A program made the translations under genes and the position numbers. A DNA stretch of 22,250 nt from a virus. Below the pieces are notes generated by a model. That model did no database searches. It saw nothing but the letters and a program-made list of their open reading frames with translations, and was not told the origin of the DNA. Of this stretch, positions 1-16,746 are shown piece after piece; position 1 is the stretch's first letter, and each line of letters starts with the position of its first letter. Location: the IMG/VR virus record IMGVR_UViG_3300033571_025035, positions 1 to 22,250 of that record; one strand, written 5' to 3'.

Positions 1-3000
1 GCCTTGATTGCGAATGGGACCTGTGTTGTAGTTGGCTGGATCAACTGCTCCAATAAAATCAATGTTTCTGCGGGCAGCGCCTAGGATTTTGCCCTGTAGA
101 GGGTCTATAAAATCAAAATATGTTTGTGTAGATGACAATAATTTGTCATACATGAACACAGTATTAATTAGATCAACATCGACCACTGGTTGTTGTTGTC
201 GTAACACTGCCCAGGCTGGATTGTTACCAGGATTGGTAAACACTGACACCAATCCGTAATTGTTGTTGGGTAACGGATTGTTGTCGATAGAGACGCCGTC
301 ATAACCGGGAGAACCTGCCAACAGTTGTCCGCTAGTGTAGTCAATGGCTATGGCAAATTTGTCAAAAGATCCTAATGCAGTGTTATAGACCTGTTGTCCA
401 AACACAAACTGCCCAGGATTGGTCACAGATCCGTTGGCACTGGGCAGGAAATCATAAGTGTAAGCCACACCACTGTTGAACACTGGATTAAAGAACGTAG
501 TGCTATGGTCATCAAATCTGGTGGCACCGTTGTCAAAAGTCATGGGTTCATAGACATTTCCATTGATTGCGCTGATAATTAAATTTTCTGCACCGGTATC
601 CACACTGATTTTAGACCCAAACAATGCATAGCTGCTAGGAGCTGGACTGGTTATAGTCTGTACATAAACAAATGTATTGAATCCAAGATCTGCAAATGCT
701 GAATTTACGATTCCTGGCAACACCGACAGTTGATTACCGGGTGTGGCAGCTGCAGAATTTTTTATGCTCACAGTCATACGTCCAGGTACCACAGTGATGG
801 TAGATCCTAGGCCAGGTGCTGTAACAAAATTCAGTGTAGAGAAATCATTGGTCCAACTAAAGCCGCTGACCTGTACCGCTCCGTTGATCAACACCTGAGT
901 ATTGGGACTTATTGTGTATTCTGACGCAGAATAAATGTTGCCTACATTGAAAACTGTTGTAGATCCATCGCCGATAAATTCTACATTGGGCAACAAGGAA
1001 GCCACAACATTGGGCACATTGGCTGTGTTAATGGCATCGACCAATCCTTCAATTGTATTGTTGGGGCTGACCGGAACTGCTACTTCAATGTTGTTGATAC
1101 GTATGGTATCACCGCTGGTCAATACTGGATTGGCTATGGTTGTAGTTGTGATTCCATAGACACGACTTTGATTTAGATTGCGTTCTACACTACCAGCATC
1201 TATCAGCACTGCGCTGTCTTGAGGTGATCCTATGTACAAACTACAATTTGTGTCGCAGATGTCTAGTGCCTGTCCAAACTGGTTGTTTGTCACAGGTGTG
1301 TTTGACACAACTTTTTGCACAGGCTGGAATTTGTTGGTTTCTATTTCCAGATTGTCTCCCACGGTCAGTGTGACCGAAGACAACAGAGTTATTTGATTGG
1401 TGTCATAATCAATGTCAACTTGACCATTGATAAATTGCGTTCTTGTTACAGCACCTTCAGTTACATTGCGCACCGTTAAGAACTCGCCATTCAATAACAC
1501 CGAAACTGGTGCTGTAGGAGTTCCAGGCATGTTATAGGTTGTGACCGAGGTATCTGTGATAAGTTGACGCTCAACACTGCGGTCCCACACATACACCGCA
1601 CCTGTGGCTGTGTTTGTCAGACTGGCGTTGGCTGCATCAGCACCAATGTATATCTGCCGACCGTCGGTGGAAGTGGCCAGATCAATACCAAATTGTGCAT
1701 TGGCTGGTAACAATTCGTTGCTTTCAATAATTCCGCAGGCTTGCCAATAATCACCAGCGTTGACTTCAATGGAATCGCCAAATGCCGGAGTAGTAACAAA
1801 CACCAGGTCTAAAAATGCCAAAGCACTGTCGTTGTTAAATTCATAATCAATGTAAGGTCTTTGTATCACTCCATTTACACGCACAGTAAATGCGTCGATG
1901 TTCGCAGCAGTGTACAGCCAAGGATCCAAGGGAAAATTTTCAGTGCTTCCGTCCCCGGTAAATGATATCCCGGTGCGGCGACGTATGGTCAAAATAAATC
2001 CAGGCGACGGTGGCGTGGCAAATAGGATGTCATTGCTGGATACTACATAATCCACGCCCTCGACCAAGGCAAATTCGCCAAGGTTCACAATCAACTGTGT
2101 TTCTTTGTATGCTGGATCTACCACAATGTTGTCGCTCCAGTTAAAGGCAGTGATCACTCCGTCGGTGCTATAAGACACTGATTGAAATTCTGTATCTACT
2201 CGAGCATAGGCATATACCTTGCCGCCACCGGTGTCACCAGGGGAGCCTATATACATCCAGCGTTCATCTTGGCTTATGACCACAGACGTACCAAACTTTG
2301 CCGAATCAAAGCTGATACCGGGTCTCTTGGTCAGCACTTGTGTGATAGAATAACCACTGGTAGCTGGATTTTTGTTCAGTGTAGCCACGTATCCAAAATT
2401 GCTGAGACTGCGCGGTGCTCCCACTGCACTCCAAGTATTTGCTCCATAACTGATGACATCCCCAAATCCCACGGTTGCTGTGGCAGTCAATGCCAGTTGC
2501 CCAGCCGATGTATAACCTGTGGAATTTTGATTGTAACCATAAAGGTACACTGTGCCGGCTCCGGCAAGATCGCCAGGAGCACCTACCAACACGCTGCGAA
2601 GATCTAAAGTTTGTGCCACGGCGCTGCCATACCCAATATTTTCAACCAACGGATCTAACTGTATTTGATCAAACAATGTAAATGGAATCTGTTTTTGTAA
2701 AACTTGCCAGTGTCCGGTACGATCATTGTCCACAAAGGCCAAAGATCCAGGGATCAACGAATTCACATACGGCAGATTGCCCACGTCGCTGGCCTGAGCC
2801 ACCCGCATGGTTTGCAAATTAAATACCAATCCTGTACCTGACAGCACAGTTTGATTGGTGTTGATAAAGGAAAAAGCTATGATAACACTGTTGATCGATG
2901 GAACCGCCAACACACGATACACTCCGTCCACTGATGAGTTGAAGTATCGGATTATGATTAAATCTCCAATCTTGAGACCATGCACTTGATTGAATCGGGC

Positions 3001-6000
3001 CACGCTGGTCGAGTTGAGATTATCAGTCAGTTCAACCATTTGTCCAGGCACACGTCCACATCTGTACACGTTCCAGTCATAACTGTTGCTCTTGGCTGCC
3101 CAAATTTTAGTGCCAATGCCAATCTGATCTAGGTTGGCCTCTATGCTAGAAGGATCATCAAGACTGAATACTGTGATATCTACATCATTCAAATTGACAT
3201 ACCCAGCTGTGGGCAACGCTGTGTCTTGATTGGTAGTAAACGTTGTGGGCAAAATGTCCGTGGATGTCAGTTTAAAACTTTCTCTCCACACATCGCCTAA
3301 CAAAATGGCCTGGTTGGCCTGACTGAATTCCTGCGGAAATATTACTTGCACTGTGGCCGGATCAGAGGTCAAATCTGCTTCATTGAGTCTGAGCTCAAAG
3401 AAACTGCGATTAGCGTTGGCTCCGTATGTACCAACTAATACGCCCCAGTTTTCATAGATGTTGTATTCACCAGTTTCTTTGCCCAGATCTGCATTGGTAA
3501 AAATTTCTGCAGCACGCAAGGTACCCTTGGTTGGTAAAAATTGTTTGTAAAGATTAACCTGGCTGACATCATCTAAATTCAAATCAACCATGTACTGCCG
3601 TAGTCGGAATCCGATCAGTCCGTAACTCAACAAATCGTTGTCGCGTTCAAGATTGGCCACTTGAGTGTTGTAGCTGTTGGCCAACTGATCAGCTTTGTTG
3701 GCAATGTTAGGTAACAGACCACCTTGTATCTTGGTGTAGTCGCTCTTGACCCAGTCGTTGTAGTTAAATTCGACCTTGGGTTGTACAATAGTTTGCGCTG
3801 ACCAATAGTTGTTTTTGTAAATGACTATTTCGCCTTTGGTGTATTTGCGATTTGGGCGCCATTCACGCACTGTGCTATTGTCATTGAGCACAAAACCCCG
3901 AGCATCCAAGGTTCCATCCCATTCGATAGTGGTCGACCCCGCGATTCGCACGCGGTTCTGTCTGGACCCAGTTGTGGGATCGTAAATCAAATCTGAAAAA
4001 ATACTGATGTTGTCCAGAATCGCAATGTTTTCGTAATTGGTAAATTGCATGTTCAAGAACGAAATGGTTTGATTGCCAGGCGATGTAATTTCAAATGCGT
4101 TGCCCTGGCGATTGATTATCAAATCTCTAGTAGGCAAGGTTTGACGATTTTGATCGAGCAAAAGATTTTCAGGACTGGTGCTGACAATAGTGTCGACCAC
4201 TGCGTTGGCTCTAACAGCTTTTAAAGTAGTAGCAGATGGGTTCAAATTAATCAAGGTGCCAGGGTCCCAACCTTGCTGGCTAAAATACAGGAATTCTGTG
4301 GCCATTTGATTCCAGTTCAATGTATAGCCATTTTCTCTATCATCAAATATCAAACCTTGAGTTTCTAAATACTTGCCGTAGCTGAGTATAAAATCTACCA
4401 CCATGGTAGTGTTGGTAAATGTATACCCATAGGGCACTTGTACCACGTTGTTGGTATATTGAGCTGGTACCCTGACTTCGGCGCCGCCGCCCGATACTGT
4501 TTGTAGTATACCGTTGCTAGAACTGACTAGAATTTCAAAATATGGTGTGGAATTGTTGTAACCCCATACGCTGTAGCCATCGGCAGTGCGTTCTACAATA
4601 AGACTGCTGTAGACAATCTTGGCAAAGGGTTGATTTTTGTAGATCAATAATTTATAACTGTCGTCGGGCAACAACAAGCTCGAGTTAGTGCTGTTGGGAC
4701 TGCTGCGTTCTACAAAAATTTTGAGATATTGTTTGTCGGTGAAACTGGCCATTCTGTAGCACAAACGCACATCTACGTTAGAGAGATCGTTGGTAAGATC
4801 AGTGGTGCTGTCACGACCTAGTTGTTGATTATAGTCCACAATCCAGTTAATATAGCTGGCACACGAATGACCATTGCCGTAGATTTGAAGTGTGCTGTCT
4901 ATCGGTTGGTTGGCCAACTTGGTTGTGGTTAATCGATATCGACCTCTGTACAAATACTGTCCCAGTTCGTCGTCGTATCTATACAAGTCTCTGTCAGCAA
5001 ACAGGCTGAAAAATTCTGCAGGTCTTGTCGATGCCAGTAGGCGCATGATAGCAAACGGATAACTACTGCTAGTCCACCAGGTATTTTCCACTGGGCTACC
5101 GTCACCTGGCAACCAGCTCTTGCGGAATGCTGTAGGATCATATTGTCCTACCACGCTGTCAATGGGTGCCAACAAGTTGCTGTCAATGATACCTGGTATA
5201 AAGTTTTCAGAACCATTAGGTATCACTGCTTGTAGTCCAGGTCTAGCAAACTGTGGGCGTATGTAAGGCGCCACAGGATCGGCCACTAGACCCAATTCTA
5301 AGTCTTGCCATAAAACCAGGTTGTCATTGGTGTATGGTGCTGGGCCGTAGCGATCTTCCCACCAAGATGGTTGTTCACTGAGACCCAACATTTCCCAGGG
5401 AGTAACATTGGGACTAGTAGTATCATAAAAATACTTGTAGATTCCGCGCCAGGCTCCTAACAAGGGTTCACCGTTGATTTTGTTGCCAGCTGTGCTGTAG
5501 TTGTAGGTAAACGGATTTTCAGGATTGTATGTTTGTGTGGTATAATCCAGCTTGTTCCAACCTACCCAGGTCAAAAAACTTTCATTGAGAATTTCGTTGA
5601 TTTCTGCCTGTGAGTAATCTGTGGTGCGGAAGAATCCCGGAACCACATCTTCTACTGTGAGTGGTATAGGATTTCCTTCTGTTTTGAGATTGTTGTAGAT
5701 TCTGCGCTCAAATTCCAGCAACACTTCATCTCTAATGTCATTGAAGGCCACAGTGATGCTGCCGTCGTGTCCTTGAATGACCACAGTAGGTTCTGTATAG
5801 TTTGGATCTAGAAATTGTCTAGGTTCATATTTAGGATACAATCCCAGTTTGGTAGGAGTGTTAGGGCAAAAGTTACCAACAGTGGTTGTGTATTCACGTA
5901 TGATAAGAACATCACCGACCGCCAATGGAGTAATCACAGTAAGCTGTGGAGAGTCAGGCGAAACTGTGTAGTCTTTGCCCAAAGTTAGCAGTGTAGTTAC

Positions 6001-9000
6001 TGTGCTTTGATTAGGAGCCGGTCGTTGCAGATATACCAACAGGCCATGATAATTGGCTGAGAAAAAATTATAAGTCTGCACAGTGTTAAACACCACTGGT
6101 GTGATTGGAGTGATCACCGTCGTGGTTTCAGTATAGACTGGCCCGGAAGGCAACATGTCACTCCAGTAAAACGGATTGATATCAGTGCGTCCTTGAGTGA
6201 TGTCGTAGATAGCCAAATCTAGTATTCTGGACACTGGAGTGTCCAAAGGATATTCGTTGCGAATTACTGTATCTAAAACAAGATTTTTATATTTGATATA
6301 CTCTCTACTGTTGTATTCCAGTGCTGCGAAAATATTGTACTCGCGATTTCGCATAAAATACCCGGCCAAGGTCAAAGGACTGCTTTGTTGTAGGATCTGT
6401 AGGCCATAAGGTATGATATTACCCAGGTCTCTGGTGTTATTGGCTCCAATAATAGGACCTTGTATGTTCAGCAAATTTTCACCAATGGTTTGATAATGAC
6501 TGCGAACTGTGCCCAAGGTAAATGTTTCGCTGTTGCTATTGAGCGGATTGTTTTCTAGATTTATAGGAATTTGATAAAATGCCTGGGCACTGATCTGATC
6601 GCTGATCACAGCCACTTCAATCACATCACCGGGTGCATAAATCTTGCTCAACGTAATTGTAGTTGTGTTTGCCGTGGTGGTATAAGTGTAGTTTTGAGGT
6701 TCTTCAAATGTACTGTTGACATATAATTGCACGGCCGGCACTGTGGAATTGGCATTAACTTTGACATCCAAAAGCAAAGGACTGCCATCGTAACTAAACT
6801 GGAACTGTTGACGTTGCAAGCTAGGGGCCACCGCAGGTTGCCAACCAATTTCTCTGATAAAGTTTACTCGATCATTGTATTGTCTAACAAAACCTTGACT
6901 GATATTTTCTACCAGACCCCGACCGTTGTCAACATATGCAAAGGTGTCAACATAAAGATTGTTATCAAACACAATGTCGCCCACATTGGCCAGGCTGAGA
7001 TAACGCACAGGGAACCCCAACACAGCGTCAGGACTAAGATTGCTGGTAGCATAACTGAATAGCTTGCTTCCTACAAAGTCGCTGCTGAGATATTTGGCCT
7101 GATTGCTAAAACTCACACCGTCTGAGTCGTATACGTTAAACAACGGTGGTTGATTGACTTTGATTTTGTCTTGAGCTGATAACCATTCTACTCCATCAAA
7201 CCAAAAACTTTTACCCTGTAATGTGTTTCCACTCAAGCATACCACAGTTTGATCCACTAAAACTTGAGCGTCTGCAGCAGGAACCAAATTGATCACTGGT
7301 TGAGCAATCAATGGAGGCACTGTGTCAGGCACAATAAATTGTACTTCGTAAATTTTGTTGCGCACCTGGGAGTCGGTATCGTTGGCAAAAATAACTCGAC
7401 TGCCTTCAACCAATGTATAACCATCAAAACTGTATCCTGTGGTTCCATTGATGTTGCTCAAGGCATCGGTTTGTTGAAAATCAATAACATTAACTGGTTG
7501 CTTGCCTTGTGTGCCAAAATCAAAAAGTCGAGTTCCAGCACGAAATTCTAAGATAGGTCTACGAGCACGCAATCTATTGTCCGGTGAGACTACGGTATTG
7601 TTGTACTCAGCCGAAGCAGTGATCACATCTATGTGGAACCAACGATTACTACGTGTCCAAGCGTTGAGGTCTTCACTGGCCCGATTAATGGTCAAGTAGT
7701 CGGGCACCAAGGGAGCATTCAGAGTAGCATCATAGTTTCCTACGTCATAAGGGGTGCTGTCATAGGGCACACTCGCACTTTCAGTATAGGTTTCAGGTGT
7801 CACGAAATTGGTCACAGGCAGAAGTTTGATAGCTGTGCCTACACCTTCCACATAGTATTCTTGATTTTGATAACTAGTTGGTTCTACTGTACCACGAAAC
7901 ACCACTTTTAGTCCGTTGGTAAACTCTACTCCGTTGGGACTAATATAATTTTTTTTGCCAATAATATCACTGATAAAAATTGTGTCGGCGTTGGCCGAAT
8001 CGATCAGTTGAATTTGTCCAAAAATCTCAGGATCTGTGCCGTCCTGGTAATACAACACATTTTTAATGGCAGTCAACAAAGGAATTTGTTGGAAAAATCC
8101 GCTGTCGTTTTTGTACCATTGTGTGCTGGCATATTGTGTGCCAAACAAAATTGAAAATTTTTCTAAATTGTTTACCGACAACACAGGCACCAATTGCATG
8201 TAAAATTGGTCGCCGCTGGTGTTTACGTATTGAATTTGCCACACACTGTAACGCTGACTTTGGCTGGTTATGTCGGTGGTCTGATCATATAGAGTGGTAT
8301 CGTAGCTACCAACTTGTCCATTGAAACTGTTGTCTCGTGGCAAGGGATCAAATTGTGTAGTTACTTGCCAGCCGCCGGCTTCGGCATCAAGTTCTTGATT
8401 TAAAAATACTACGGTTTTACCATTAAGACTAGTAATCCCATCAATGCCAGTGGGATTGGCTTGAAAAAATGGCTCCAAAAATTGATTGTTGATCTGGTTG
8501 AATTTTAAATTGGTAATCAGATCCACTGTGCCAGCAGGTTTGCCGGGAATAGTACCAATGGGTGACAAAGTATAGAAAAAATCCTGGGCAGTAGCCAAAG
8601 GCACATCAAAGGTCACGGTACCAAGATCCTCGCCATTGTTGATTACTCCCAGTACATCTCTGGAACTGATATTAGGAGTGGCAGGTATACGTCCATTGAC
8701 TCCAGGATCGGTCTGTATCCAGAATCCTGGTCCAGTTCCTGGAGTGCCATTTATCACTGTAAACACACCTTGCATGCTGAACTGTGTGGGATTTACATAA
8801 TATAAAGTATCGGGGGCATCTTGAGGCACAGTAAAAGTAATAGTACCAGTAGTGGCTCCATTGCGAGAAACCCCATTGTTATACTGATTGGTTGTGCCCA
8901 GTGTAGGTTGAGTCTTGATAAAAAATGGATACACTCCATCAAAGGACAAAGTAAATGTGTAGGTATTGCCGCGCACCAAAGTGATAGCAGGATTGTCTTG

Positions 9001-9639
9001 AAAGTCAATTACATAGGCATTGTTGGTCCTATTGGTTACACCATAATTAACATCTTCCTTGGCATTTTGTGCCACCTGAAAAGTGTAATTGCCCTCTCGA
9101 GCCAATCTAATAACAGGATTATTTCCGTTTACGCCACTGAAAGTATAAACTCCATTGTCTCGTGTAACTACAAAATTGTCTGTGAGTGGAACACCTGTAG
9201 AGGCTACATCCACTGCGTCAGGGCCAGCTGGCAACCAGTAGTATTGGCTGTAATTGACAAATTTGTCAAAATCTACAAACGGATCCCATGTGTAATATTC
9301 GCTGGTGTAGAGTCTATCAGCATTGTTGATTTGAGCGCCTTGCAAAGCCAACGCATCATTGATTCCAGGATAGGTAATAGCATCCTGGATATTGTTGGTA
9401 TCGGGTTCTAGACTGATAACCCCGGGTTCCAGCTGATAATTGTTGCGTTCAGCTGTGGGCTCAATTACATATCGATCTGCGGCATTGACTCCGGGTCCTA
9501 TCTTGCGACCAGCAAATCCTTGTGTCTTTTGAAACGCAGGTTCTTGCGTGAGCTGATCCAGGGTGGCGTTGAGAAACTGCCGATTGACTGGCGTTTGAAA
9601 TATTTCTGGCAGAAATTCAACAGTGCGAACTCGAGCCAT
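1..9639 (-). CDS. Giant virion structural protein, probable baseplate/tail-fibre component (3' end outside window)
   Basis: I read the minus frame from ATG at 9639 to base 1 and found no stop: at least 3213 codons, C-terminus missing. The start overlaps the gp6 stop (TAATG) and has GGAG 7 bases upstream. Visible modules: a conserved-looking N-terminus with NYSQYYWLP (about 130-140); two cupredoxin-like strand motifs (174-189 and 216-293) without metal ligands; a CBM5/12-like aromatic motif (1927-1963); about seven FG-GAP-like repeats (2335-3140) with inserted beta-rich modules. No signal peptide or membrane segment was noticed. Position just after gp6 is where T4 has gp7, but I see no similarity to T4 gp7. 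Very large structural proteins are known in marine T4-like phages. A role in the wedge periphery or fibre, possibly in binding host surface glycans, is inference. That it is one intact coding gene is very likely; exact function is uncertain. Confidence 0.85.
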   Translation of the reverse strand, partial: MARVRTVEFLPEIFQTPVNRQFLNATLDQLTQEPAFQKTQGFAGRKIGPGVNAADRYVIEPTAERNNYQLEPGVISLEPDTNNIQDAITYPGINDALALQGAQINNADRLYTSEYYTWDPFVDFDKFVNYSQYYWLPAGPDAVDVASTGVPLTDNFVVTRDNGVYTFSGVNGNNPVIRLAREGNYTFQVAQNAKEDVNYGVTNRTNNAYVIDFQDNPAITLVRGNTYTFTLSFDGVYPFFIKTQPTLGTTNQYNNGVSRNGATTGTITFTVPQDAPDTLYYVNPTQFSMQGVFTVINGTPGTGPGFWIQTDPGVNGRIPATPNISSRDVLGVINNGEDLGTVTFDVPLATAQDFFYTLSPIGTIPGKPAGTVDLITNLKFNQINNQFLEPFFQANPTGIDGITSLNGKTVVFLNQELDAEAGGWQVTTQFDPLPRDNSFNGQVGSYDTTLYDQTTDITSQSQRYSVWQIQYVNTSGDQFYMQLVPVLSVNNLEKFSILFGTQYASTQWYKNDSGFFQQIPLLTAIKNVLYYQDGTDPEIFGQIQLIDSANADTIFISDIIGKKNYISPNGVEFTNGLKVVFRGTVEPTSYQNQEYYVEGVGTAIKLLPVTNFVTPETYTESASVPYDSTPYDVGNYDATLNAPLVPDYLTINRASEDLNAWTRSNRWFHIDVITASAEYNNTVVSPDNRLRARRPILEFRAGTRLFDFGTQGKQPVNVIDFQQTDALSNINGTTGYSFDGYTLVEGSRVIFANDTDSQVRNKIYEVQFIVPDTVPPLIAQPVINLVPAADAQVLVDQTVVCLSGNTLQGKSFWFDGVEWLSAQDKIKVNQPPLFNVYDSDGVSFSNQAKYLSSDFVGSKLFSYATSNLSPDAVLGFPVRYLSLANVGDIVFDNNLYVDTFAYVDNGRGLVENISQGFVRQYNDRVNFIREIGWQPAVAPSLQRQQFQFSYDGSPLLLDVKVNANSTVPAVQLYVNSTFEEPQNYTYTTTANTTTITLSKIYAPGDVIEVAVISDQISAQAFYQIPINLENNPLNSNSETFTLGTVRSHYQTIGENLLNIQGPIIGANNTRDLGNIIPYGLQILQQSSPLTLAGYFMRNREYNIFAALEYNSREYIKYKNLVLDTVIRNEYPLDTPVSRILDLAIYDITQGRTDINPFYWSDMLPSGPVYTETTTVITPITPVVFNTVQTYNFFSANYHGLLVYLQRPAPNQSTVTTLLTLGKDYTVSPDSPQLTVITPLAVGDVLIIREYTTTVGNFCPNTPTKLGLYPKYEPRQFLDPNYTEPTVVIQGHDGSITVAFNDIRDEVLLEFERRIYNNLKTEGNPIPLTVEDVVPGFFRTTDYSQAEINEILNESFLTWVGWNKLDYTTQTYNPENPFTYNYSTAGNKINGEPLLGAWRGIYKYFYDTTSPNVTPWEMLGLSEQPSWWEDRYGPAPYTNDNLVLWQDLELGLVADPVAPYIRPQFARPGLQAVIPNGSENFIPGIIDSNLLAPIDSVVGQYDPTAFRKSWLPGDGSPVENTWWTSSSYPFAIMRLLASTRPAEFFSLFADRDLYRYDDELGQYLYRGRYRLTTTKLANQPIDSTLQIYGNGHSCASYINWIVDYNQQLGRDSTTDLTNDLSNVDVRLCYRMASFTDKQYLKIFVERSSPNSTNSSLLLPDDSYKLLIYKNQPFAKIVYSSLIVERTADGYSVWGYNNSTPYFEILVSSSNGILQTVSGGGAEVRVPAQYTNNVVQVPYGYTFTNTTMVVDFILSYGKYLETQGLIFDDRENGYTLNWNQMATEFLYFSQQGWDPGTLINLNPSATTLKAVRANAVVDTIVSTSPENLLLDQNRQTLPTRDLIINRQGNAFEITSPGNQTISFLNMQFTNYENIAILDNISIFSDLIYDPTTGSRQNRVRIAGSTTIEWDGTLDARGFVLNDNSTVREWRPNRKYTKGEIVIYKNNYWSAQTIVQPKVEFNYNDWVKSDYTKIQGGLLPNIANKADQLANSYNTQVANLERDNDLLSYGLIGFRLRQYMVDLNLDDVSQVNLYKQFLPTKGTLRAAEIFTNADLGKETGEYNIYENWGVLVGTYGANANRSFFELRLNEADLTSDPATVQVIFPQEFSQANQAILLGDVWRESFKLTSTDILPTTFTTNQDTALPTAGYVNLNDVDITVFSLDDPSSIEANLDQIGIGTKIWAAKSNSYDWNVYRCGRVPGQMVELTDNLNSTSVARFNQVHGLKIGDLIIIRYFNSSVDGVYRVLAVPSINSVIIAFSFINTNQTVLSGTGLVFNLQTMRVAQASDVGNLPYVNSLIPGSLAFVDNDRTGHWQVLQKQIPFTLFDQIQLDPLVENIGYGSAVAQTLDLRSVLVGAPGDLAGAGTVYLYGYNQNSTGYTSAGQLALTATATVGFGDVISYGANTWSAVGAPRSLSNFGYVATLNKNPATSGYSITQVLTKRPGISFDSAKFGTSVVISQDERWMYIGSPGDTGGGKVYAYARVDTEFQSVSYSTDGVITAFNWSDNIVVDPAYKETQLIVNLGEFALVEGVDYVVSSNDILFATPPSPGFILTIRRRTGISFTGDGSTENFPLDPWLYTAANIDAFTVRVNGVIQRPYIDYEFNNDSALAFLDLVFVTTPAFGDSIEVNAGDYWQACGIIESNELLPANAQFGIDLATSTDGRQIYIGADAANASLTNTATGAVYVWDRSVERQLITDTSVTTYNMPGTPTAPVSVLLNGEFLTVRNVTEGAVTRTQFINGQVDIDYDTNQITLLSSVTLTVGDNLEIETNKFQPVQKVVSNTPVTNNQFGQALDICDTNCSLYIGSPQDSAVLIDAGSVERNLNQSRVYGITTTTIANPVLTSGDTIRINNIEVAVPVSPNNTIEGLVDAINTANVPNVVASLLPNVEFIGDGSTTVFNVGNIYSASEYTISPNTQVLINGAVQVSGFSWTNDFSTLNFVTAPGLGSTITVVPGRMTVSIKNSAAATPGNQLSVLPGIVNSAFADLGFNTFVYVQTITSPAPSSYALFGSKISVDTGAENLIISAINGNVYEPMTFDNGATRFDDHSTTFFNPVFNSGVAYTYDFLPSANGSVTNPGQFVFGQQVYNTALGSFDKFAIAIDYTSGQLLAGSPGYDGVSIDNNPLPNNNYGLVSVFTNPGNNPAWAVLRQQQPVVDVDLINTVFMYDKLLSSTQTYFDFIDPLQGKILGAARRNIDFIGAVDPANYNTGPIRNQG
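238..2640 (-). repeat. FG-GAP-like (beta-propeller) repeats in the giant protein
   Basis: This stretch encodes a recurring pattern of the form FG-x-(S/A)-(V/I)-...-D-...-(Y/V)-x-G-(A/S)-P-...-G-x-V-Y. Examples are YIGSPGDTGGGKVYAY and VLVGAPGDLAGAGTVYLY. The aromatic anchors fall at residues 2337, 2392, 2449, 2650, 2788, 3007 and 3095. The first three are about 55-57 residues apart, as expected for propeller blades. Later spacings are larger because beta-rich segments are inserted. Repeats near 2392 and 3007 are weak matches. FG-GAP repeats are known from integrin alpha propellers and many bacterial surface proteins; a ligand- or surface-binding role here is inferred. Confidence 0.65.
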
Positions 9640-12600
9640 TAAATTACTCCACTGCCAGGGGCAGTTCTAATGTTGGTAGAAGTCAAGGCCGTGATAACCT
9701 CTACATCATTAACCGTGGCACCGTTGACAAAAATCTGATTGGGTGCGCTGCGTATTTCGTAAAGGTCACCAAAATACTTTTGTGGATTAAGTGGTACCAG
9801 GACCACACTGCTGACTATGTCTCCAATCTGCGAATGTATGTAGGCGGCCAATTCACTGAAATAGAATGTGTCACCAAAATCCCATTTGTCAAGACTAAAA
9901 TAAGCATCCATGTTGGCCACAACCAGATTCTTGATTTCGCTGACACTGGCCGTGCTCTGACTGTTTCTAATAACTTTGATTGTGGCACGGAGTTCTTCGC
10001 TGGCTTTTTGTCCAAACACAGGTTTAAATTCCACACTGTTGAGAATCATGTTGTCCGAAATCATTTTGTATTCTTGTAGGCCAGCATATTCAGTTGTGAG
10101 CTGATCAATGGTAGGTGGTGTAGGCTCCGGCACAGTATTGGTAACGTCTTTGAGCCAGTTTTGATAGGCTGTGTAATAACTCAATGTGACCACGTAAAGA
10201 TCAATGATATTGGTGGTTCCTGGATCCAACCTTGATGTCAACGGACTGTTGTGTCTGTACTGAAAATAAAGATCTTGACGACCGGTTCTGGCAATAAACT
10301 CTGTGTTAACAACTAGTTCTCTCACACCTTGAGCATTTAAGACCAAGGTGTAGAATGTAGGAGTAATGGTGTTGTTGGTAAGTTGACCGTAGGCATAAAA
10401 TACCTGTCCAGGAACGTATTCTTCTTTGACCAACTCAATATCATCTAAAGTAGCATATTCACTGTTCACTCGACCCGACTCTACCAACAGATATCGTTGT
10501 AGGTTGTCAAAATCCACGGTTTGTTGCAGGAACACCCAAGGTGAATTGGCTGTGGCTGGGCTAGGAACTGTTCCTATGATTTCGCTAAAGAAATCAGGAT
10601 TGTCAGGCACACCATCGCTGTCTGAATCTTCAAAGCCGACCAAGACCTGGAAGTCATCTACAAATCCATCACTTTCTACAGGCTGACCAATGATCTTTAA
10701 TCTGATGTCTCCCTCAAGAGGCAAGTTTGAATTGGGTCGACTATTGGTCTTGAGCACGTTGATAAAATCGCTGATCACTGTGCCTGTGCGACTGTCGTAG
10801 ATTTTTTGATTACCAAAAAAGAAAAATCTTGTTTGTAGCACACTGCCAAAATAGTAATTGAGATTTCTTGAAACCACTGTGTAGTTTTGTCCATCTGTGG
10901 TGGCTTGTATAAACCAACTGGCATCAAGATTTGTGCCAGAGGTGTTGCCAGCGTTGGTCTGACTCCAGGCAGCATTGATTGCCAGATTGGCAGCAGTAAT
11001 CAAATACCAAGTTCCGGCTGTGCCTGTAACTGTGCCGGTGTTGTCATAACCCAGACCAAAATTTTGATTTAGTATAATTTGATCTAAAATGCTCTGTTGT
11101 AAACTGGTTGAAAATTCTGTCACAAACAACGGAATTACCTGAGCGGCTATAGCGCCGGTGGGTACAAAATTATTCAACACTACTGGTCCTTGCCCATTTT
11201 CTAGGTTACCTAGACCCTGATTGGTTCCATCCACAAACACTGCTGTGGGACTGGCCCAGATCACCAGCTTTTCGTCAGCACGTGTGGGTACGCCTACTTG
11301 CAAACGATTATTGGCATCAAAATAGTAACCTGCAGGCGGAACAAATTTTACCAAGCTACCTACCACTATATATTTCATGTTGTTGTTGGTATAGATGCCA
11401 ATGGGCTCAGGATTACCTGAAATGTTTTTAAAGTAACCTGTGGTTTCATTGGCCAACACTGTGCTTTGATTCCAGGTCACTCCCAAGTTAAGCAATGATG
11501 GGCGAGCATAATTGGCATAGTAAAATTGTTGAGCTCCTGCTTGGACCAACAAAGGTGTAATACGATTGGTGATTATGTCTGTGATATCATTGTTTGTGAG
11601 CCAGGCAAACTGAAAAGCTGGCAAATCATTGAATTCATACAAGGCTCCGTCACTGCTAAAAGTGTTGGTGCTGGAATATTTGCCAGTGTTGTCTACCAAG
11701 TCTAGATAGCGACTGGTACCAATCGATGCACGATTCAAAGCCTTGCTTTTTAAAATACTGTTGTAGGCCGTGAATGGAAAATTGTTGTAGTCTTCGCCGT
11801 TGACCATGCGGTTTTGTGTGTAATAACGAGCCGGTGCACGTTGCTTGATTTCCTCGATAGTCTCTCGGGCTTGTGCGTTGCTCACAGGTTCGGTGATGCC
11901 ACAGGTAAATGTAATAGTTTCAATTTGTCCAGTGCGGCTCACGTAGTTGATAGGTATCTGCACACTCTGCATTTCTTCTGGATTGATAATGTACTGCAAG
12001 CCATTTGAAGCACGCACATAGGCACGGAACAGGCCCACCGGTATTGTAGCAAACACACCATCGCCAAAGTTGAGAGTGATTTGATCGTTGCTTCTTGAGG
12101 TCACACTGAATATGGTCCTTGTTCCTGGAGTTAACTGCTCAACGGCAGCCCCATACACACTTTCCACAAACTGCCATTCACGAGCCACATTGCCTAGATT
12201 ATCTAACTGATACAACCAACGGTCGGTGTTGTTGATACCTTCAATGTTGATATTGACCGCACGATTGTCCACACGTTCTGGCAAGTTGAAGTCTTGATTC
12301 TGTAGGACACCTTGTTTGAACAAGAAAAAATATCCTGTGTTGGCCGAAGCAAAACCCAGTTCATCGTTGCGAAACAACATGTTGAATCTGCCGTTGGGCA
12401 AGGGACTGGGTTCCACTATGACTTTGTTTCCGTCGGCGCCCACTGCTGTGGCATTGACTGCTTCAAACGGCATGTTGACGCCATCAATGGTGGCTGTGTA
12501 GGGCACCACTGGTAAAAATCCTGGCACCAAATTGATAGTGTACTCGTCGGTGCGTACACCTAAAATGTTGTTTCTTGCTCCGGGACGGCCCACACGTTGT

Positions 12601-13100
12601 GTGTCTACTAGGCTGGCATTGACAATAGCCGTGAACTGTTCTTGCCAGTCAAAATTGCTGGGGTCAGCCCAATTTACTGTGACATTGGCCAGGTTGATGC
12701 CGTTGTAGTCTATGACGTTTTCGGTGGTTTGAACTGAAAATACCTTGAGATAACCACTGGCACAGGTGTTGCGCTTGGGTGTATATGACACTAAATTTGC
12801 CAGCTTTACCACGCTGTCTCTGCGTTCTGCTGTGTCTAAATAATTCTCACGTGTGTTGAGGTCTGTGCGGAAGGCCAGCGCCTGACCCATGAATGCCATG
12901 ACATCCAGCAAGGCAATAAATTCTGAACTTTCAATGTAGTCATTGAATGTCTCTGGATAGTACAACCGCAAATAGTCCACAAAACTCTTGCGCAAGGTTT
13001 CAAAATCATAGCTTTGAAAGTCGCCTTCGCGGTAGGTTTGATAGATTCTTTTCCAATCCTCAACTCCAAATACAGCGGTTTGTCTAGTGGTTCTGGCCAT
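9639..13100 (-). CDS. 6: gp6-like baseplate wedge protein, extended (1153 aa)
   Basis: Structural protein of the baseplate wedge; in T4, gp6 dimers link the wedges into a ring around the hub. The N-terminus (about 1-120) has the helical wedge pattern with YPETFNDYIESSEF and an FRTDLNTRENYLDTA segment. Around residues 405-445 is ETIEEIKQRAPARYYTQNR followed by VNGEDY, typical of gp6/gpJ-family wedge proteins. The C-terminus (about 1040-1120) has the conserved-looking IGDIVSSVVLVP region. T4 gp6 is 660 aa, so roughly 500 residues are extra, mostly in the middle; these include an Asp-rich calcium-loop motif at 825-836. ATG at 13100 is preceded by AGGAAG at 13104-13109 and a late-promoter octamer. 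It lies 52 bases after gp25, matching the gp25-gp6 neighbourhood of related phages. Assignment is firm for the family; the inserted part is unassigned. Confidence 0.85.
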   Translation of the reverse strand: MARTTRQTAVFGVEDWKRIYQTYREGDFQSYDFETLRKSFVDYLRLYYPETFNDYIESSEFIALLDVMAFMGQALAFRTDLNTRENYLDTAERRDSVVKLANLVSYTPKRNTCASGYLKVFSVQTTENVIDYNGINLANVTVNWADPSNFDWQEQFTAIVNASLVDTQRVGRPGARNNILGVRTDEYTINLVPGFLPVVPYTATIDGVNMPFEAVNATAVGADGNKVIVEPSPLPNGRFNMLFRNDELGFASANTGYFFLFKQGVLQNQDFNLPERVDNRAVNINIEGINNTDRWLYQLDNLGNVAREWQFVESVYGAAVEQLTPGTRTIFSVTSRSNDQITLNFGDGVFATIPVGLFRAYVRASNGLQYIINPEEMQSVQIPINYVSRTGQIETITFTCGITEPVSNAQARETIEEIKQRAPARYYTQNRMVNGEDYNNFPFTAYNSILKSKALNRASIGTSRYLDLVDNTGKYSSTNTFSSDGALYEFNDLPAFQFAWLTNNDITDIITNRITPLLVQAGAQQFYYANYARPSLLNLGVTWNQSTVLANETTGYFKNISGNPEPIGIYTNNNMKYIVVGSLVKFVPPAGYYFDANNRLQVGVPTRADEKLVIWASPTAVFVDGTNQGLGNLENGQGPVVLNNFVPTGAIAAQVIPLFVTEFSTSLQQSILDQIILNQNFGLGYDNTGTVTGTAGTWYLITAANLAINAAWSQTNAGNTSGTNLDASWFIQATTDGQNYTVVSRNLNYYFGSVLQTRFFFFGNQKIYDSRTGTVISDFINVLKTNSRPNSNLPLEGDIRLKIIGQPVESDGFVDDFQVLVGFEDSDSDGVPDNPDFFSEIIGTVPSPATANSPWVFLQQTVDFDNLQRYLLVESGRVNSEYATLDDIELVKEEYVPGQVFYAYGQLTNNTITPTFYTLVLNAQGVRELVVNTEFIARTGRQDLYFQYRHNSPLTSRLDPGTTNIIDLYVVTLSYYTAYQNWLKDVTNTVPEPTPPTIDQLTTEYAGLQEYKMISDNMILNSVEFKPVFGQKASEELRATIKVIRNSQSTASVSEIKNLVVANMDAYFSLDKWDFGDTFYFSELAAYIHSQIGDIVSSVVLVPLNPQKYFGDLYEIRSAPNQIFVNGATVNDVEVITALTSTNIRTAPGSGVI

Positions 13101-13152: not shown

Positions 13153-13527
13153 TTACACGAAGCTGGCCCGGCGCTGAGTCTGATCAAAGAATATACTGAG
13201 TCTCTCAGCACTGGTGCTGGGCACCACAGTGATTTCCAACTGTATCAACATGCCATTTTGTTGTGGAAACAGTTCAACACTACTGACAAACACTCGGGGA
13301 TCGCCGCCGGCCACACGCTGTATTTCTGCAGTGATTCCACGCTCGGTTTCCTGTGTTTGATTTTCAAACACATAGTCCCAGATCACAGTGCCATAACCAG
13401 GACGACCCACCAGTTGACCTTGACGGATATTAAAGGCGTTGAGCAGGTCGCGCTTGATCAGTTCAAAATCTACCAAGGTAAATTTTTTGTTTTGATCTAT
13501 GGTGTTGAATCCGATAAAAGTGGCCAT
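13153..13527 (-). CDS. 25: gp25-like baseplate wedge protein (124 aa)
   Basis: Small baseplate wedge component of the gp25/GPW family, which in contractile tails contacts the sheath and helps nucleate its assembly. Length (124 aa) is close to T4 gp25 (132 aa). The N-terminal half has the family pattern: a variable start, then DFELIKRDLLNAFNIRQGQ, then GRPGYGTVIWDYVFE (about residues 19-56). The C-terminal half has alternating beta strands ending in a hydrophilic tail. The ATG at 13527 is preceded by GGAG with 10 bases between; the gene starts 16 bases after the stop of the gene upstream. It lies immediately before gp6, which supports the wedge assignment. Nothing unusual is seen in it. Confidence 0.85.
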   Translation of the reverse strand: MATFIGFNTIDQNKKFTLVDFELIKRDLLNAFNIRQGQLVGRPGYGTVIWDYVFENQTQETERGITAEIQRVAGGDPRVFVSSVELFPQQNGMLIQLEITVVPSTSAERLSIFFDQTQRRASFV

Positions 13528-13543
13528 GCAGTATTTACTCCGG

Positions 13544-15226
13544 TTAAATTGTCACTGTTTGTCCAAATGTACCACTACCAGGACGTGACAGATTCCTCAA
13601 GAAATTTTGAGCCTGTTGTATGTCCAATCTAGGAGCCAACGAAGCTAGGCTGGGGTATTGAAACACTGGCAAGGGCACCTTGTCACTGCCCACTATTCGC
13701 GCAAAGGCCGCATCTACCGTGGCACGATTTACAGTGTTATTGAAACCAGCCGCGACCTGGGTGCCCGATACTAAATCTCCGCCACCGCCAAACAAATCTC
13801 CCACAGCACCTATGTTGGCAAAACTACCAAGGTTGCCAAAAGCGTTGGTCAATCCACCCAAGTTACCAACACCGCCAAGATTGGTTATGCCGCTGAGCGG
13901 ATTAGCAAAGTTTGTGGCAAAGCTGCCGGCCTTCCCAAATATGTCAAGATTGGCAGTGAGGTTGCTCAGGCTTCCTGGTACTAGATTGGTAAGATTTGAA
14001 GTAATACCATTAAGACTTCCAGTGAGTCCACCGGCCAAATTAGAGAACTGCCCAGTGATGTTATTAAAGCTGCCTCCCAGCCCGGCAGTAAGATTGCTTA
14101 ATCCTGAACTGGCTAGATTACTGATGCCGCCGGTATCGTTAAAGTTCAATCCTCCAGACTTGGCCCATAGCGCAGTGGCTTGGCTGCCAAACTTGCTGGC
14201 GTTGGTCACCAAGGCTCCTACACTGCCGGTGATCTGATTGTTCAAACCCTGTGATAAACCAGCAAGACTTACATTAGACAAGTTGCCAATGCCAGCAGTA
14301 AGACTACTGATAGCACCACTGCCGATTGTGTTGAGATTTATATTGGCTGTGCTGAGCAATCGATTCAGTACGGTTGACGAAGTCACGGCATTGCGTGCCA
14401 CTTCATTCAAACTGCCCAAGTTGGTTCCCAACAAACTCAATGCAGTCAGTGCCGATACCGACTGCAGGCCTGAATTAACAAACACTTGTCCGGTGCTGAT
14501 CTTGACACTGGGCTGAGAGGGTGCGGTTATGGTGCCGTTGGCCAAGAGCTGGTCATAGCTTTGTTGCATGATTTCTGTTTGGATTTGACTTTGTGCTATT
14601 GGGTCGCTCAGTAAATCTGACAAGGAATAAATGCCGCCTTGCCCGGTCCATACACTAGGACTGCTCATGACTGCCACAAAGTCTTCAGGATCAACAGCAA
14701 AAAATCTCAAGCTGGTTCCAGGTTTGACATATCCTGCCTGCTCCAGGGCATAGGCAGTAAATCCGTATCGACCTATGCCCTTGGTTTGAGAAATTTGATC
14801 ACTTTCTTGATCTACTAAATTGGCAATCTGAGCTAGAAGCTTTTGAACCTGATATGAAGTCAGCGGCCCTACGGTGCCTGGGCCCAGACCATCGCCCTGG
14901 GCCAGTACAATGTCGGATTCGTCAATGGGACTGGTCAACGGCACATTGGACAAATTGGGTATACCAGCTATCACAGGCAGGCCCTGTATGATGGCCAGTA
15001 CTGGAGCATTGTCTACACCGGCTGTGCCACGATCCAGGCGACTGAGTTCAAATTTAGTGATCTGTGTGTCTGCTCGGGTTAGAGTCTGTCCGCTTTCATA
15101 ACCCACAAAGGTCCCGGCCGCAACTTGTTCATAGAAAATTCTATCAGCCCGGGCCTGTGTAGCATCAGCAGGACCTCGCACTACAAATTCAGCACCGCTG
15201 GGAAGAGTATAGTTGAATATGCTCAT
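13544..15226 (-). CDS. Tail-associated protein with lysozyme-like domain and Gly/Asn/Leu-rich repeats (560 aa)
   Basis: The start is ATG at 15226, overlapping the spike stop as ATGA; an in-frame start 57 codons earlier would lie deep in the spike gene. Three regions are visible. Residues 1-115 are beta-rich, with LSRLDRGTAGVDN. Residues 118-232 resemble tail-associated lysozyme or transglycosylase-like domains: E141 in QESDQISQ, then KGIGRYGFTAYALEQAGY (149-166), WTGQGGIYSLSDLL (193-206), and a helix. In such domains a Glu shortly before a G-x-G-(K/R)-Y-x-F motif is catalytic, so E141 is the candidate. Residues 303-484 are low-complexity Gly/Asn/Leu/Ser. The C-terminus (500-560) is globular again. 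Position between spike and gp25 suggests a hub or spike-associated wall-degrading protein. The enzymatic call is inferred from motif resemblance. Confidence 0.6.
   Translation of the reverse strand: MSIFNYTLPSGAEFVVRGPADATQARADRIFYEQVAAGTFVGYESGQTLTRADTQITKFELSRLDRGTAGVDNAPVLAIIQGLPVIAGIPNLSNVPLTSPIDESDIVLAQGDGLGPGTVGPLTSYQVQKLLAQIANLVDQESDQISQTKGIGRYGFTAYALEQAGYVKPGTSLRFFAVDPEDFVAVMSSPSVWTGQGGIYSLSDLLSDPIAQSQIQTEIMQQSYDQLLANGTITAPSQPSVKISTGQVFVNSGLQSVSALTALSLLGTNLGSLNEVARNAVTSSTVLNRLLSTANINLNTIGSGAISSLTAGIGNLSNVSLAGLSQGLNNQITGSVGALVTNASKFGSQATALWAKSGGLNFNDTGGISNLASSGLSNLTAGLGGSFNNITGQFSNLAGGLTGSLNGITSNLTNLVPGSLSNLTANLDIFGKAGSFATNFANPLSGITNLGGVGNLGGLTNAFGNLGSFANIGAVGDLFGGGGDLVSGTQVAAGFNNTVNRATVDAAFARIVGSDKVPLPVFQYPSLASLAPRLDIQQAQNFLRNLSRPGSGTFGQTVTI
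13775..14320 (-). repeat. Low-complexity Gly/Asn/Leu/Ser repeats within the lysozyme-like gene
   Basis: Residues 303-484 consist largely of short units such as LSNLTAGLGG, FSNLAGGLTGSLNGITSNL and GGVGNLGGLTNAFGNLG. Hydrophobic Leu, Ile or Phe recur every 3 to 5 residues among Gly, Asn and Ser. The pattern is irregular, with no exact period. It could form an extended beta or amphipathic structure inside the tail tube or hub, but this is inference. Confidence 0.6.
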
Positions 15227-16746
15227 TTTTTGGTAATACTCCACTCGTCGGGCACATCCGGAGCATCTGGAGGTGGTGTACTTTGTCCTTCCTCCAAGGA
15301 CACACTCACAGGAACACCTTGATTGTGATAAGGATAAGGTTCGTGCGTGGGTGCGCGAGTCACAATGCTTTCTAGTCCAGTGGCATTCACTGTCCAACCT
15401 GTGCTGCTGTTGAATTCTGTTTCAGGCATGAGAGTTTTGGTAATTCCTCTGGGTGTGGTGATAGGCAGACCAGGAGCTCCGTTGAGACTGATAGGAAGCC
15501 CTTTGAGAGCCAGAGGTCCTGAAGCTTCCATGCTGGCCAGCTTGCCTTTGAGTGCCAGGGTTCCGTTGCTTTTGACTCCGATCTGCGAGCTGGCAAACAA
15601 GATCAGGTCTTTTTTGCAGGCCACATTCAAACTACCATCACTTTGTATGGCTGTGCCTCCAACACTTTTTATATTGATTTTTTTACCAGCAAACATGTTG
15701 ATGTCTTCGTCGGCATGCAGATTGATTGTGCCTTGTGTGCGCACATTCACACTGTTAGTGGCAAACACATCTACTGTGCCTTCCTGGCCTAATTCAATCC
15801 AGGTTTGTCCATTGGCATGAGTGATATAAAAACAATTGCCGTCATCGCTCATGGTTATTTGATGACCTTTGCTGGTTCTTATGCGAATTAAGTTGTCATC
15901 ACCAGTGAGGTTGCCATCGTCCATGACAAAGGTGTGACCGCCGCGTCGACCAATGACTTTGAGATCAGCCAGACTTTCACCGCTGAGTTCTTTGAGCGCA
16001 TCTCGATCCCCATTGATTCCACCGCCAAGTCCACCTTGATAGATGGCACGACCAGGAGTGCTCATACCATAACAGGCACTGGGACTTTCACGCTGGCTGC
16101 TGGAGCCTATGCTACCTCTAACAGGATCATTAATCAATCCTTGCTGAAATAAAGTGGCTGCTACGTAGCTGTGAACTGGCTTGGGTTGATCAAAGAATCT
16201 AGGGTTTTCGTTGGTGGCTGGATTGTCAGGACTGTTGTTGATTTCAGTGACCGGCAACAGTGGTGCTCCAGCAAAATATGTGGCTTGATTGTTGTTTTGC
16301 GTCTGTGCCAGGCTTCTAGGCACTGAACCGATGGCTGGGATCATGCGGTTAATACCTTGCTCGGGTATGCAACCCACATAGTATCCTTGATTGGGATCGC
16401 CTTCTACAAAGAAACACAATACATTGACGCCAATGTCAGGAGGTGTAAACCACATGCCATAGCTTTGTGGATTGCCATTGATGTAAGTTCCTGTGCCAGC
16501 ACTGCCACCGCGCGGTGTGGCTCCATAGAAAGGTGGACAGTAGCTGACCGTGCGCCACAAGCTAGGATCTTCTGGATTGGGTCCAGCAAACTGCTCTATG
16601 TAAACCTGCAGGCGTCCTTGACGTGTGGGATCAATGTTGTTGGTCACACGACCAATAAATGGACCAAATTCTGTGGGACTTCCACCACGATCAAATTTAT
16701 AACTACGGGGTTGTCCTCGACTGCGTTCAATATTTTCACCGGCCAT
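15223..16746 (-). CDS. 5: gp5-like baseplate spike protein: OB fold plus beta-helix, no lysozyme seen (507 aa)
   Basis: Central spike at the baseplate tip that pierces the outer membrane. Residues 27-130 match the gp5/gpV-type OB fold: FGPFIGRVTNNIDPTRQGRL, then YGMWFTPPDIGVNVLCFFVEG and GYYVGCIP. A linker (about 140-255) includes QRESPSACYGMSTPGRA. Residues 262-430 have the VgrG/gp5 beta-helix pattern of short alternating strands, for example TINLHADEDINMFAGKKI. The C-terminus has RAPTHEPYPYHNQGV and a Pro-rich end. T4 gp5 carries a lysozyme domain between the OB fold and the helix; here the roughly 125-residue linker shows no lysozyme-like Glu/Asp/Thr motif. The ATG at 16746 overlaps the previous stop (TAATG), and the stop overlaps the next start. 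Family call is firm. Confidence 0.85.
   Translation of the reverse strand: MAGENIERSRGQPRSYKFDRGGSPTEFGPFIGRVTNNIDPTRQGRLQVYIEQFAGPNPEDPSLWRTVSYCPPFYGATPRGGSAGTGTYINGNPQSYGMWFTPPDIGVNVLCFFVEGDPNQGYYVGCIPEQGINRMIPAIGSVPRSLAQTQNNNQATYFAGAPLLPVTEINNSPDNPATNENPRFFDQPKPVHSYVAATLFQQGLINDPVRGSIGSSSQRESPSACYGMSTPGRAIYQGGLGGGINGDRDALKELSGESLADLKVIGRRGGHTFVMDDGNLTGDDNLIRIRTSKGHQITMSDDGNCFYITHANGQTWIELGQEGTVDVFATNSVNVRTQGTINLHADEDINMFAGKKINIKSVGGTAIQSDGSLNVACKKDLILFASSQIGVKSNGTLALKGKLASMEASGPLALKGLPISLNGAPGLPITTPRGITKTLMPETEFNSSTGWTVNATGLESIVTRAPTHEPYPYHNQGVPVSVSLEEGQSTPPPDAPDVPDEWSITKK

Follow-up and report, generated by a model that had tools for sequence, protein, structure and literature searches.

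An integrin-type FG-GAP propeller predicted within a giant baseplate-region protein of an uncultured jumbo phage group

Here, we describe a predicted seven-bladed FG-GAP propeller inserted in a giant protein of the probable baseplate periphery, whose gene immediately follows that of gp6, in a phage group outside culture. Throughout, the window denotes the whole stretch of DNA analysed, which is the entire 22,250-base virus record IMGVR_UViG_3300033571_025035. The propeller would most likely be shown at the baseplate rim, with one copy per wedge, where it would most likely serve to bind some structure on the host surface. We consider this combined reading, an inserted and decorated propeller at the baseplate rim serving as host-surface binding platform, as the best explanation of the available data, with a probability of roughly 0.5. 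It draws on the repeats and their count of seven, the predicted fold, the insertion relative to cultured phages, the faster divergence and the operon context.

The giant protein is encoded in a minus-strand frame which starts at 9639 and leaves the record at base 1, yielding 3213 amino acids in the window. Since the window is the complete record, the C-terminus of the protein lies beyond the record end, and residue 3213, which the preliminary description had used as the last residue of the region to be modelled, marks the end of the record and not that of the protein. Intact relatives in IMG/VR measure 4370-5190 amino acids. The following genes were assigned in this part of the window:

1-9639, minus strand: giant baseplate-region virion protein (PHROG phrog_10938, 5.6e-235)
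9639-13100, minus strand: gp6-like baseplate wedge protein, directly upstream of the giant gene (phrog_10646, 8.2e-281; phrog_219, 1.1e-25)
13153-13527, minus strand: gp25-like baseplate wedge protein (phrog_43, 8.5e-11)
15223-16746, minus strand: gp5-like hub protein (hub/lysozyme PHROGs matched in part only)

According to the same PHROG comparison, a gp53-like wedge protein is also encoded upstream of the giant gene on the same strand, and the plus strand encodes a gp55-like late sigma factor. These matches identify the surroundings as the baseplate operon of a contractile-tailed phage related in type to T4, which agrees with the initial designation of the giant protein as a phage tail protein. 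Among the PHROG matches of the gp5-like hub protein, no lysozyme domain was noticed. Contigs from the window's own clade reach up to 317-347 kb, and a search of GTDB contigs for relatives that might hint at the host found none. Another IMG/VR contig (3300032322_002827; locus L153, 7229-11866) encodes the first 1546 residues, with a best segment at 100% identity, and probably overlaps the present record, stemming from the same phage or from a very close one.

Using a blade profile trained on relatives alone and then run on the window protein, we found seven FG-GAP-like repeats between residues 2326 and 3137 (window 229-2664, minus strand):

2530-2664, minus strand: blade 1 repeat, residues 2326-2370 (35.0 bits)
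2374-2490, minus strand: blade 2 repeat, residues 2384-2422 (23.7 bits)
2200-2310, minus strand: blade 3 repeat, residues 2444-2480 (43.5 bits)
1576-1713, minus strand: blade 4 repeat, residues 2643-2688 (32.8 bits)
1153-1308, minus strand: blade 5 repeat, residues 2778-2829 (44.3 bits)
451-663, minus strand: blade 6 repeat, residues 2993-3063, with a 33-residue B-C loop at 3025-3057 (23.9 bits)
229-369, minus strand: blade 7 repeat, residues 3091-3137 (17.9 bits)

These scores (17.9-44.3 bits) compare with a best score of 10.0 bits among 300 whole-protein shuffles. When each blade class in turn was left out of the profile, blades 1, 3, 4 and 5 of the window copy were still recovered at 14-25 bits and blades 2, 6 and 7 scored weakly (3.7, 1.4 and 6.7, respectively); across the relatives, blade 6 was recovered in most members, with blades 2 and 7 remaining weak. 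The five clear and two weak copies proposed in the preliminary description are therefore close to what was obtained, namely four clear and three weak copies if judged singly and seven clear copies as a family. No eighth copy was detected with the blade profile, neither in the 3213 residues nor in the intact relatives. Every member of the first relative set which spans the region carries exactly seven blades, and among the loci with both flanks, counted at the chosen threshold and including some from overlapping contigs, seven blades were found in 159 of 170, six in nine and five in two, with none showing eight.

A Pfam scan of the window copy returned no FG-GAP match, even at E<=10, whereas PF14312 (FG-GAP_2) matched 16 of the 17 members of the aligned family, which comprises the window region and 16 relatives (best E 3.8e-18). 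Up to four FG-GAP_2 stretches were matched per protein in this alignment, and scores among the eight members listed were 35-66 bits, with a curated cut-off of 23 bits. The expectation that FG-GAP profiles would recognize the region was hence borne out for the family and not for the window copy itself. Within the A-B turn of blade 5, the two cysteines of a CDTNC motif (residues 2795 and 2799, window about 1243-1257, minus strand) are invariant in the 17-member alignment and could possibly form a disulfide or a metal site.

We next turn to the predicted fold of this region, which covers the following interval:

193-2688, minus strand: seven-bladed integrin-type propeller with inserts, residues 2318-3149 (AlphaFold2 model, VIA-align)

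The AlphaFold2 model of residues 2296-3185, obtained with 17 sequences (pLDDT 80.7, pTM 0.83), is a closed ring of seven blades carrying inserts on loops, with four strands per blade (strand order taken from predicted secondary structure, not from coordinates). In VIA-align comparisons, the alpha propellers of leukocyte integrins (alphaM, alphaL, alphaX) filled the first eight rows at Z 24.4-25.2, superposing with an rmsd of 2.7-2.9 Å over 353-361 residues between model residues 23 and about 851; integrins ranked high in Foldseek as well. Because other propellers, including WD40 proteins, also score high (Z 23.5-24.2, below the integrin rows), the Z-score alone indicates a seven-bladed ring, and it is the FG-GAP repeats that point to the integrin type. 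Based on this model, residues about 2318-3149 almost certainly form an integrin-type propeller with inserts. That the region might instead be an elongated string of beta-sandwiches, in which FG and GAP motifs occur by coincidence, could be suggested by the beta-rich modules that do occur in the flanks and inserts; this alternative is, however, extremely improbable in view of a closed-propeller model of good confidence, integrin matches at Z 24-25, FG-GAP_2 profile matches and repeats that are not reproduced by shuffles. The top PDB row in Foldseek, cyanophage A4 9k09_U, was not accepted as a propeller, having a TM-score of 0.10 and an rmsd of 32 Å; residues 741-822 of this chain match an adaptor-like module, which recurs along the giant protein as listed here together with the inserts:

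1762-2163, minus strand: C-D insert of blade 3 with two module copies, residues 2493-2552 and 2562-2626 (profile, model)
1354-1560, minus strand: C-D insert of blade 4, residues 2694-2762, module suspected but weak (model)
673-1170, minus strand: C-D insert of blade 5, residues 2824-2989, with one module copy at residues 2890-2950 (window 790-972)
5899-6096, minus strand: module copy before the propeller, residues 1182-1247 (profile; structural match to adaptor domains)
6613-6747, minus strand: module copy before the propeller, residues 965-1009 (profile)

Four loops are enlarged, namely those joining strands C and D in blades 3, 4 and 5 and the one joining strands B and C in blade 6. The preliminary description had anticipated a closed propeller decorated by large inserts between its later blades, and the predicted model conforms to this picture, with inserts on loops of blades 3-6. 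An iterated profile search seeded on residues 2557-2629 recovered a ~65-residue module five times in the window protein (twice ahead of the propeller, twice in the blade 3 insert and once in the blade 5 insert), with further copies near the C-terminus in intact relatives. The blade 4 insert gave weak module matches in relatives only (7.7-12.6 bits), and the blade 5 C-D insert is missing in some relatives. Judged by profile similarity, this module accounts for at least three inserted domains, and the decoration of the propeller appears to be built from the giant protein's own repeated module. The domain containing the copy at residues 1182-1247 matched CBA120 tailspike 4, Klebsiella phage fibre adaptors and the N-terminal part of T7 gp17 at Z 5.6-8.0, values that are also reached by common arrangements, with top rows being mostly phage tail proteins; moreover, PF03906 (T7 tail fibre N-terminal) was matched at 5.5e-5 in the insert of one relative. 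As modelled, the module resembles the T7-fibre N-terminal adaptor. Further upstream, residues 195-297 (window about 8749-9057, minus strand) form a domain matching phrog_677 (2.8e-13); residues 201-300 are missing from three relatives (L008, L013 and L021), which makes this phrog_677-type domain another removable module.

The propeller is framed by two conserved parts of the giant protein:

2770-9639, minus strand: N-terminal scaffold, residues 1-2290, parts of which are common to six cultured jumbo phages
10-216, minus strand: conserved post-propeller segment, residues 3142-3210, present in all six cultured jumbo phages tested

Long stretches of the giant scaffold are matched in the jumbo phages PA5oct, RaK2, SCTP-2, Atu_ph07, Phosso, Vibrio 2.275.O and others, and the six named phages share the gene order in which a long wedge gene is followed by the giant gene. 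In these six phages, the scaffold was recognized to about profile position 2050-2177, in addition to the segment 3142-3210, and none of them carries propeller blades between both flanks. In RaK2 and Vibrio 2.275.O, the flanks lie about 110-130 residues apart, and in PA5oct and SCTP-2 this distance is 300-400 residues; in Atu_ph07 and Phosso, they are separated by about 1,500 residues of unlike sequence. No FG-GAP_2 match was obtained anywhere in RaK2, PA5oct, SCTP-2 and Vibrio 2.275.O, and those of Atu_ph07 and Phosso are located in separate genes. Similarly, tblastn against 50,697 records revealed no cultured phage with the propeller in the giant protein, and the sole match of the window's 880 C-terminal residues was the post-propeller segment. 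At the level of these sequence comparisons, the propeller is an insertion relative to cultured phages, at a site that is filled differently or left short in other jumbo phages. Of the 42 FG-GAP_2 matches in Phosso, most fall in two neighbouring genes whose products measure about 3160 and 3690 amino acids, both annotated as hypothetical (locus L233, 1839-22479; record 48338-68978).

The position of the giant gene directly after the gp6-like gene is that of gp7 in T4, which is a six-copy peripheral wedge protein (PMC3004832). No sequence homology to T4 gp7 was found using hhalign (p 0.69; both alignments shallow), and the model of scaffold residues 1001-2160 (pLDDT 62.6) gave small-domain PDB matches, with gp7 not among the matches listed. 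Likewise, the scaffold profile gave nothing significant against PDB sequences (best E 0.13). The equivalence to T4 gp7 is positional only and, as homology went undetected by profile and among the listed structure matches, the proposed location rests on gene order. The PA5oct homologue is recorded as detected by ESI-MS/MS; from gene order, this mass-spectrometry record and the location of T4 gp7, we infer that the giant protein is situated at the baseplate periphery.

With regard to sequence divergence, mean pairwise identity is 0.45 for the propeller vs 0.58 for the 410 residues before and 0.61 for the 300 residues after it, and the propeller identity is lower than that of both flanks in 99.9% of 7140 pairs. 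The D-A loops are the most variable loop class, and their extra variability is suggestive but not significant overall. The A-B loops are 2-5 residues long and constant in length, with no calcium-binding motif in any of 125 sequences. Host-structure binding appears the most likely role of the propeller, ahead of a docking function, although we would place it at about even odds. Against it, the variability of loops on the face usually used for ligands does not significantly exceed that of the short loops on the opposite face (p=0.086); moreover, the propeller diverges steadily and is never lost among sampled clade members, unlike many receptor-binding tips. The faster divergence alone is also compatible with relaxed constraint.

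Alternatively, the propeller could be structural, docking tail fibres or linking neighbouring wedge proteins without any host contact, a plausible reading although we do not favour it. The inserted modules are similar to the adaptor domains through which fibres attach to tails, as illustrated by the above matches of a scaffold module copy to T7 gp17, CBA120 tailspike 4 and the Klebsiella adaptors and by PF03906 in a relative's insert; in addition, no clade member that has both flanks is without the propeller, as would be expected of an assembly part. However, it diverges faster than the surrounding scaffold and cultured relatives assemble without it, and modules also occur far from the propeller, so that they do not mark it as the dock. 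A third view, in which the propeller is an accessory surface decoration mediating, for example, weak reversible glycan or particle binding and is not a host-range determinant, seems unlikely. It would nevertheless fit the accessory adhesive domains that are common in phages, the clade-wide presence, which suits a general rather than a host-specific role, and a suspected CBM5/12 chitin-binding-like domain at residues 1922-1970 of the giant protein (window about 3730-3876, minus strand). The Pfam match of this domain (E 0.011) falls short of the cut-off; in structure, it matches a baseplate chain of phage Milano as well as chitinase domains at Z 4-7.

Returning to host-surface binding as the preferred reading, we tentatively propose that this uncultured jumbo clade may have built an integrin-like receptor-binding device into its baseplate wedge, decorated with duplicated adaptor-like modules, by which the host would be recognised instead of, or besides, separate fibres. 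In animals, integrin-type propellers are adhesive platforms. FG-GAP propellers are already present in viral protein collections, and some devices by which phages recognize their hosts are known to contain propellers; what appears new is an integrin-type propeller spliced into a giant baseplate-region protein, and the papers searched contained nothing relevant on propellers of the FG-GAP or integrin-like type in the baseplates of phages. As an in-frame part of a core protein of the baseplate region, in an environmental jumbo group that is widespread and whose cultured relatives lack it at this site, the propeller is a concrete candidate for the element that recognizes the host in phages outside culture, and its distribution amounts to a natural experiment in the gain or loss of entire baseplate domains.

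Compared with known systems, T4 gp7 occupies the same place after gene 6, but has 1032 amino acids and shows no detectable similarity at the profile level. The giant proteins of RaK2, PA5oct, SCTP-2, Vibrio 2.275.O, Atu_ph07 and Phosso share flanks and position, with a site devoid of blades. Atu_ph07 (AUZ95081.1, 'hemagglutinin') and Phosso (XYS97288.1/XYS97289.1) encode FG-GAP_2 proteins of 392-394 amino acids as stand-alone genes outside the baseplate protein, although their giant scaffold is a homologue. The receptor-binding protein of Staphylococcus phage phi11 reportedly contains a beta-propeller in a host-recognition device; it is a separate siphophage protein, likened here by description only. 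The best predicted-structure match, BFVD A0A6J5L8L4_3 from an uncultured Caudovirales phage (unannotated; E 1.5e-30, 18% identity over 905 columns), probably represents one part of another giant protein related to this one. The integrin alpha propellers (alphaM 9t3y, alphaL 5e6s, alphaV 1jv2) likewise form a closed ring of seven FG-GAP blades (Z 23.5-25.2), and the model aligns with them from residue 23 to about 851, its N-terminal strand falling at integrin residue 1. Identity is about 16%, and no significant sequence relationship to integrins was found with the profile against PDB chains (alphaIIb at E 0.24). Integrin alpha carries calcium-binding A-B loops of the DxDxDGxxD type in its last blades, which the phage propeller lacks, whereas the latter carries the loop inserts described above (C-D in blades 3-5, B-C in blade 6). 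Finally, the integrin is a cell-surface receptor, while the phage propeller is embedded in a baseplate protein.
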